From NCBI GenBank assembly GCA_016234115.1, contig JACRHD010000008.1, forward strand, positions 1 through 64,000: a DNA stretch of 64,000 nt, read 5' to 3'. The notes below the pieces were generated by a model. It saw nothing but the letters and a program-made list of their open reading frames with translations, was not told where the DNA came from and searched no databases. Made by a program: the position numbers and the translations under genes. The stretch is from Nitrospirota bacterium. GTDB lineage: Bacteria; Nitrospirota; Thermodesulfovibrionia; UBA6902. Positions 62,106 through 63,715 of the stretch are shown one piece after another; position 1 is the stretch's first letter, and each line of letters begins with the position of its first letter.

Positions 62106-62112
62106 CAGCTTT

Positions 62113-62233
62113 ATTCCCCCTTAGTAAAGGGGGGGGAAGGGGGTTGTTTTAATAAATTGTTATACCTTAGAAAAAGCAGGAGAGGGTTGATTTATTAGAA
62201 CAACCCCCCTACCCCCCTTTACTAAGGGGGAAT
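62113..62233. repeat. family A long palindrome, left flank of DUF559 gene
   Basis: 'attcccccttagtaaaggggggggaagggggttgtt...aacaacccccctaccccccctttactaagggggaat'. Confidence 0.92.
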
Positions 62234-62268
62234 AGAGTTCGCCCCCTTTTGAAAGGGGGAATTTAACA

Positions 62269-62643
62269 ATGAAAATACAATACGACCCAAAACTGAAACA
62301 TAGATCAAGAGAACTCAGGAAGCAGGGTGTTTTTTCAGAAGTTCTGCTTTGGACATATCTGAAAGGCAGACAAATGCTTGGCCATCAGTTTATGAGACAA
62401 AAGCCGGTAGGAAATTATATTGTTGATTTCTATTGCAGCAAACTGCAATTGGTTATAGAAATAGATGGAGAAAGTCATAATGGCAGATTTGATTACGATG
62501 TGGACCGGCAGCAATTCCTTGAGTCTTTGGGATTGACCGTTCTAAGATTTAACGATGTGGATGTGAAGAGGGATTTAGAAAGTGTTGTTATGGCAATCGA
62601 GAGGTGGATTGATGGAAGGGTAAACAACCCTATTCCCCCTTAG
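62269..62643 (+). CDS. DUF559 endonuclease-like (Vsr-type/PD-(D/E)XK-like) protein
   Basis: 'ARELRK..SEVLLWTYLKGRQMLGHQFMRQKPVGNYIVDFYCSKLQLVIEIDGESH' type signature; start and stop regions within repeats. Confidence 0.9.
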   Translation: MKIQYDPKLKHRSRELRKQGVFSEVLLWTYLKGRQMLGHQFMRQKPVGNYIVDFYCSKLQLVIEIDGESHNGRFDYDVDRQQFLESLGLTVLRFNDVDVKRDLESVVMAIERWIDGRVNNPIPP

Positions 62644-62731
62644 TAAAGGGGGGGAAGGGGGGTTGTTTAAATAATTACCTGAGTTGCTTTATCTAAACAA
62701 CCCCCTTGATCCCCCTTTACTAAGGGGGAAT
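62632..62731. repeat. family A long palindrome, right flank of DUF559 gene
   Basis: 'attcccccttagtaaaggggggggaaggggggttgttt...aaacaacccccttgatccccctttactaagggggaat', same orientation as left copy. Confidence 0.92.
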
Positions 62732-62812
62732 AGAGTTTGGACTTCCCCCGGTTTAACGGACACCTCGAAAGGTTAGTTGCCCCCTTTACTAAGGGGGAAT
62801 TAAAGGATCTGC

Positions 62813-63613: not shown

Positions 63614-63715
63614 AAGTGAGAAGTAAGAAGTGGGAAGGGAGAAGTAAAAAAAAATCGCCTGACGGCGCTGTTACGATGCCTTCACTTCTCACTTCTTACT
63701 TCCCACTTCTCACTT
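63614..63715. repeat. family C inverted heptamer arrays
   Basis: aagtgag aagtaag aagtggg aagggag aagtaaa, then ttcactt ctcactt cttactt cccactt ctcactt. Confidence 0.95.

Follow-up and report, generated by a model that had tools for sequence, protein, structure and literature searches.

A small nuclease gene of the DUF559 family lies between tailed hairpin units in a Nitrospirota genome, and the same arrangement recurs around DUF559 genes of many bacterial phyla. Because the genomes that carry DUF559 are the ones filled with palindromes, and because the gene sits between palindromes in so many phyla, DUF559 is the probable engine of their spread. We favor, with a probability of roughly 0.6, the reading that the gene and its flanking units form an autonomous mobile element: the nuclease would act on the hairpins at the element's ends, and the gene-less dimers would be MITE-like derivatives. 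The architecture of the element, its boundaries, its generality, the correlation with repeat number, the element-specific co-divergence of nuclease and repeat, the presence and absence of copies at given sites and an internally deleted copy are shown by the data below; recognition of the hairpin, cutting and insertion are inferred.

Results

The DUF559 locus of Nitrospirota contig JACRHD010000008.1

The DNA analyzed here, referred to as the window, is a stretch of 64,000 nucleotides (positions 1 to 64,000 of the contig), and the features of the DUF559 locus are compiled in Table 1. The original prediction, derived from sequence alone, had placed palindromes of the same orientation on both sides of the DUF559 ORF, a hairpin just before its ATG, and its stop codon within the right palindrome, giving a protein ending in VNNPIPP. 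The two palindromes, the hairpin and the C-terminus held: the TAG occupies positions 62641-62643, and the right-end unit codes for the final residues NNPIPP. The claim about orientation required correction, since each palindrome consists of two inverted units around a spacer and is thus a symmetric dimer for which "same orientation" has little meaning. The inventory was also incomplete, lacking the further solo unit upstream of the response-regulator gene.

Table 1. Coordinates of the DUF559 gene and associated palindromic features in the window
Feature	Position	Strand	Description
Left palindromic dimer	62110-62239	no strand	Hairpin + G-tail ... C-tail + hairpin; no gene inside; REPIN/MITE-like
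Solo hairpin CCCCCTTTTGAAAGGGGG	62242-62259	no strand	Just 5' of the DUF559 ATG
DUF559 (PF04480) nuclease gene	62269-62643	+	124-aa ORF, Pfam match
Right-end unit of DUF559 element	62623-62652	+	Tail AACAACCC, linker, hairpin CCCCCTTAGTAAAGGGGG
Right palindromic dimer	62626-62737	no strand	First hairpin common to right-end unit
Extra solo unit GTTGCCCCCTTTACTAAGGGGGAATT	62771-62803	no strand	5' of response-regulator gene

Folded as single-stranded DNA and compared with 200 shuffles, the left and right dimers gave z scores of -9.0 and -7.4, respectively. The stem CCCCCTTAGTAAAGGGGG occurs five times exactly in the window and eight times when up to three mismatches are allowed, against an expectation of 0.06. 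The element of a congener (L128), 77% identical to the window copy over the aligned region, is a cleaner form with a single unit per side, the tails pointing inward. The window copy amounts to such an element with additional dimers as decoration. No empty site could be identified for the window element, as the kinase-regulator junction is kept in no congener. Another imperfect palindrome of unrelated sequence, with AAGTGAGAAGTAAGAAGTGGGAAGGG arms, is located in an intergenic region at 63614-63715.

The window protein matches PF04480 with an E-value of 7e-33 (113 bits; cut-off 20.6), and residues E24, D53, E64, D66 and H70 are invariant across 23 sequences, itself included. Its structure model (pLDDT 89.6) has as nearest folds 3HRL, a structural-genomics DUF559 protein of N. 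gonorrhoeae, and I-Bth0305I (3R3P), the representative of the EDxHD homing endonuclease family (PMC3943268); profile searches agree for both, the I-Bth0305I match having E-values of 2e-5 by profile and 1e-4 by fold. The fold match to Vsr (1VSR) is weaker (E=0.03).

Other DUF559 genes and repeats of the same genome

This genome contains three stand-alone DUF559 genes and one DUF559 domain within a 1172-aa ORF. All three stand-alone genes are bracketed by hairpin units that share one design but differ in their stems: CCCCCTTAGTAAAGGGGG in the window, CCCCTCTTGAGAGGGG at L003 and CCCTCCC..GGGAGGG at L001. The first two of these are dispersed genome-wide: the CCCCCTTAGTAAAGGGGG stem has, at up to three mismatches, 64 matches per strand versus 2-5 for reversed-pattern controls, and the CCCCTCTTGAGAGGGG stem has 45 versus 1-2. 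The commonest stems, CCCCCTTTGAAAAAGGGG / CCCCCTTTGTAAAAGGGG, belong to a subtype without a matching intact DUF559 gene in this genome. At L003 (positions 1358-1490; G000 contig C4), four tandem 35-nt CCCCTCTTGAGAGGGG units adjoin the right end of the DUF559 gene.

Bracketing of DUF559 genes across genomes

Two samples of DUF559 loci were compiled: 1) 90 loci from elsewhere in the phylum which, with the three of this genome, amount to 93; and 2) loci from 80 named genomes of many phyla (Pseudomonadota, Nitrospirota, Elusimicrobia, Chloroflexi, Omnitrophota, Kapabacteria and others). Contigs were scanned for DUF559 with a closer alignment set, the first alignment being too divergent, and hairpins were located in a neutral manner, any perfect stem of 8 bp or longer being counted. 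In the phylum sample hairpin density reached 7.1 per kb in the 100 bp upstream of the domain and 8.7 per kb downstream, versus about 0.4 per kb farther off, and hairpins were present on both sides of 63 of the 93 domains as compared with 1.4% of random positions. The second sample gave both-side hairpins at 59 of 80 loci and a density of 8.2 versus 0.36 per kb. Enrichment of DUF559 beside the repeats in other genomes, which had been set beforehand as the test of the original prediction, was thus found at about 20-fold in two independent samples. No bracketing was seen for DUF559 domains fused into large proteins (n=4) or for Vsr-like genes (n=7).

The unit is composed of a C-rich tail, a linker of 3-5 nt and a hairpin with a pyrimidine-rich 5' arm. 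Paired units around DUF559 are inverted, with their C-rich tails facing inward in 76 of 80 clear pairs, and gene-less dimers share this left-end/right-end design. From the end of the domain to the right unit the median distance is 23 nt. In 74 of 85 loci the reading frame runs into this unit or past it before it stops, so that many annotated DUF559 proteins have a repeat-encoded C-terminus. The DUF559 genes at L051, L059, L063 and L076 (genomes G199, G279, G173 and G187) form a separate subgroup, whose units are CACTCCCCCCTTGAGGGGGAGTCGGC. At L051 and L063 the domain lies inside a long open frame (745-790 aa), perhaps as an in-frame insertion, and the neighboring gene looks like one for type I restriction specificity (HsdS).

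GC-rich hairpins adjoining genes could in principle be no more than transcription terminators, or hairpins formed in RNA, flanking a gene that arrived by horizontal transfer. We consider this very unlikely: the upstream and downstream copies are mutually inverted, other regions of the same loci lack hairpins, and an enrichment that is inverted, gene-specific and present on both sides is not expected of terminators. No T-tract terminators were found at the units, which gave no Rfam match at gathering score. A defense-system reading of DUF559 loci was also tested and received no support.

Repeat number and DUF559 presence

Repeats of one broad unit class were counted in 396 genomes with a gapped pattern and expressed as net matches. 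Genomes were scored for stand-alone DUF559 at a profile E-value of at most about 1e-13, a class in which the best match of some members lies in a long open frame. As the original prediction required, repeat number correlated with DUF559 presence, the median being 51.5 net matches with a stand-alone DUF559 and 0 without (p=6e-30). Counts were higher in DUF559-positive genomes in all 19 families that have both kinds and in 25 of 28 genera.

Repeat-rich genomes without DUF559, which would have refuted the prediction, are few: of the 75 near-complete genomes that reached 50 net matches, five have no DUF559 and four have weak matches only, and in the remaining 66 a stand-alone DUF559 is clear. Partial DUF559 stretches occur in the exception genomes G104, G158, G250, G302 and G316, although that of G302 is truncated at a contig end and carries no weight. 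The repeat-rich genomes G240, G358, G228 and G221 have no DUF559 match above the usual threshold; gene loss, assembly gaps or another engine are all possible. Shared horizontal transfer may also have contributed to the correlation.

Y1 genes (RAYT/IS200-type transposases) are common in this phylum and the units have a REP-like architecture, so that Y1 enzymes might mobilize the repeats with DUF559 as a mere passenger. This alternative appears highly improbable. Y1 had no effect on repeat number within either DUF559-positive or DUF559-negative genomes, and the median was still 44 in the 23 genomes that have DUF559 and lack Y1. Moreover, the GTAG tag is found in only 3 of 319 units and CGTC in 2 of 319.

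Evidence for mobility of DUF559 elements

Genome G026 has three copies of the element, which share 87-93% identity across about 410-440 bp. Homology ends at the base of the right hairpin between two of its loci (L084/L096) as well as in the pairs L126/L129 and L065/L075. A site filled in G173 (L126) is empty and without palindrome in five congeners. Within a single genus, occupancy of the pyrG-kdsA site varies by species: one has the full element, three have only a right-end unit, one has a hairpin and one has nothing. Finally, L199 (G158) is an internally deleted copy in which both palindromic ends are kept around 37 N-terminal codons. In architecture this is exactly the kind of deletion that yields gene-less derivatives, the process itself being inferred. 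No target-site duplication was recognized at the junctions examined, where the flanks are too diverged for junctions to be resolved, and phage records contained only three matches, all distant.

DUF559 might instead be a homing parasite that cuts gene-less repeats spread by another agent, its gene entering by gene conversion. In favor of this explanation, no characterized relative is closer in sequence or in fold than the homing endonuclease I-Bth0305I, and the gene occupies the position of the spacer in a gene-less dimer. Nevertheless, we regard it as unlikely. Among genomes without DUF559 the median repeat number is 0 both with and without Y1, and therefore no other engine is evident; and as the L126 site is palindrome-free in five relatives, elements evidently reach sites that offer no repeat to home into.

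A further alternative is that DUF559 serves the host as a Vsr-like repair or repeat-maintenance enzyme, the palindromes being its substrates or regulatory sites and not mobile. The Vsr-like fold speaks for it, as does Caulobacter VsrA, a DUF559 protein that brings about DNA damage in the absence of YGCCGGCR methylation (PMC12907096). Against it stand the paralogs ending at hairpins, the patchy occupancy of orthologous sites, the deleted copy retaining both ends and the absence of bracketing around true Vsr genes, and we judge it improbable.

Co-divergence of nuclease and repeat

Distances between DUF559 proteins correlate with distances between their units (Mantel r of 0.41 for left and 0.46 for right units, p=0.0005), without correction for kinship. 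For pairs below 60% identity the coefficients were 0.25 and 0.36; related sequences are not independent here. The tail reads as the mirror image of the stem arm and co-varies with it (units of loci L001-L003 and L045-L134): it matches its own arm at 6.02 of 7 positions versus 5.33 (sd 0.06) for swapped arms, again uncorrected for kinship. Likeness as a direct repeat is weaker (5.39 own versus 5.15 swapped). A fold-back triplex or some other unusual single-strand structure would give such symmetry, a possibility that we offer as a lead only.

E. coli YcjD

YcjD of E. coli is a DUF559 protein and is encoded between sapF and fabI in 3365 of 5426 genomes. The gene is followed by a tail and hairpin unit of the same class, and the upstream palindrome differs in sequence. 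Sequences resembling the ycjD-fabI palindromes, which we take to be the "box C" repeats, occur at a median of 14 places per E. coli genome. Since ycjD is confined to one locus it looks immobile there, which counts against the mobile-element reading. In other lineages eefRABCD stands in place of ycjD (PMC12817139), so that presence or absence of ycjD does not define a clean empty site. At L143 (positions 1610-2399), ycjD and the eefRABCD efflux operon use the same intergenic site in different lineages.

Discussion

A model for the DUF559 element

In the autonomous-element reading, a DUF559 gene with an inverted hairpin unit at each end would constitute an element of about 450 bp. Its sole product, a Vsr/EDxHD-type PD-(D/E)XK-like nuclease, would probably recognize the tail-linker-hairpin unit, perhaps while this is extruded or single-stranded, and cut there or close by. 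Copying of the element to new sites would then fall to host replication or repair, and internal deletions that keep the ends would generate gene-less dimers able to spread in trans. Counting against this reading, a PD-(D/E)XK-like nuclease of 115 aa is not known to possess strand-joining chemistry.

A bolder reading, which to us seems as likely to be wrong as right, is that these elements represent a second, RAYT-independent class of palindrome mobilizers across phyla, in which DUF559 would read the tailed hairpin and drive C-rich/G-rich repeats, those linked to YcjD included. Because the tail mirrors the stem arm, a folded-back (triplex-like) single strand is then a possible DUF559 target.

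Relation to known systems

The original prediction of an element resembling RAYT-associated repeats but equipped with a Vsr-like nuclease is supported, its mobilizing or cutting activity remaining an inference. The DUF559 system shares with REP/REPIN sequences and their RAYT (TnpA-REP) short palindromes, inverted dimers, a bracketed gene, many gene-less copies and the co-divergence of nuclease and repeat. However, DUF559 is a Vsr/EDxHD PD-(D/E)XK-like protein unrelated to the Y1 HUH enzyme, it is the only protein of its element, where the RAYT-REP arrangement (REPtron) has a Y1 HUH gene, its units lack the GTAG tag by the hairpin (3/319, 5' side), and their tail mirrors the stem arm, unlike that of REPs. 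CGTC REPs, which are said to lack a dedicated transposase (PMC3733652), are likewise tailed, dimer-forming palindromes of many phyla, but only 2 of 319 DUF559 units have CGTC at their ends on each side. The DUF559 system thus works like RAYT-REP but is not one, as the lack of a Y1 gene and of both tags shows; mobilization itself is inferred.

With I-Bth0305I, DUF559 has in common a homologous catalytic domain and a selfish context. It differs in being a stand-alone protein of 115 aa without extra DNA-binding domains, and in residing outside introns, bounded by its own palindromes; the window protein, at 124 aa, is essentially the catalytic domain. Vsr endonuclease is of the same fold class, but its genes have no flanking palindromes. 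As in pairs of MITEs and autonomous elements, gene-less dimers share both ends with DUF559 elements, and L199 is internally deleted. Unlike the dispersed elements, E. coli YcjD occupies one fixed locus. No connection between DUF559 and palindromic repeats turned up in the open-access literature searched.

Conclusions

Many of the bacterial genomes studied here contain numerous dispersed C-rich palindromes, which the open-access literature searched had not connected with any enzyme. E. coli K-12, where YcjD has palindromes next to it, offers a setting for testing the claim that DUF559 is their engine. If the claim is true, DUF559, a conserved nuclease of "unknown function", would gain a role, and REP-like elements would have arisen on at least two occasions, around unrelated nucleases.
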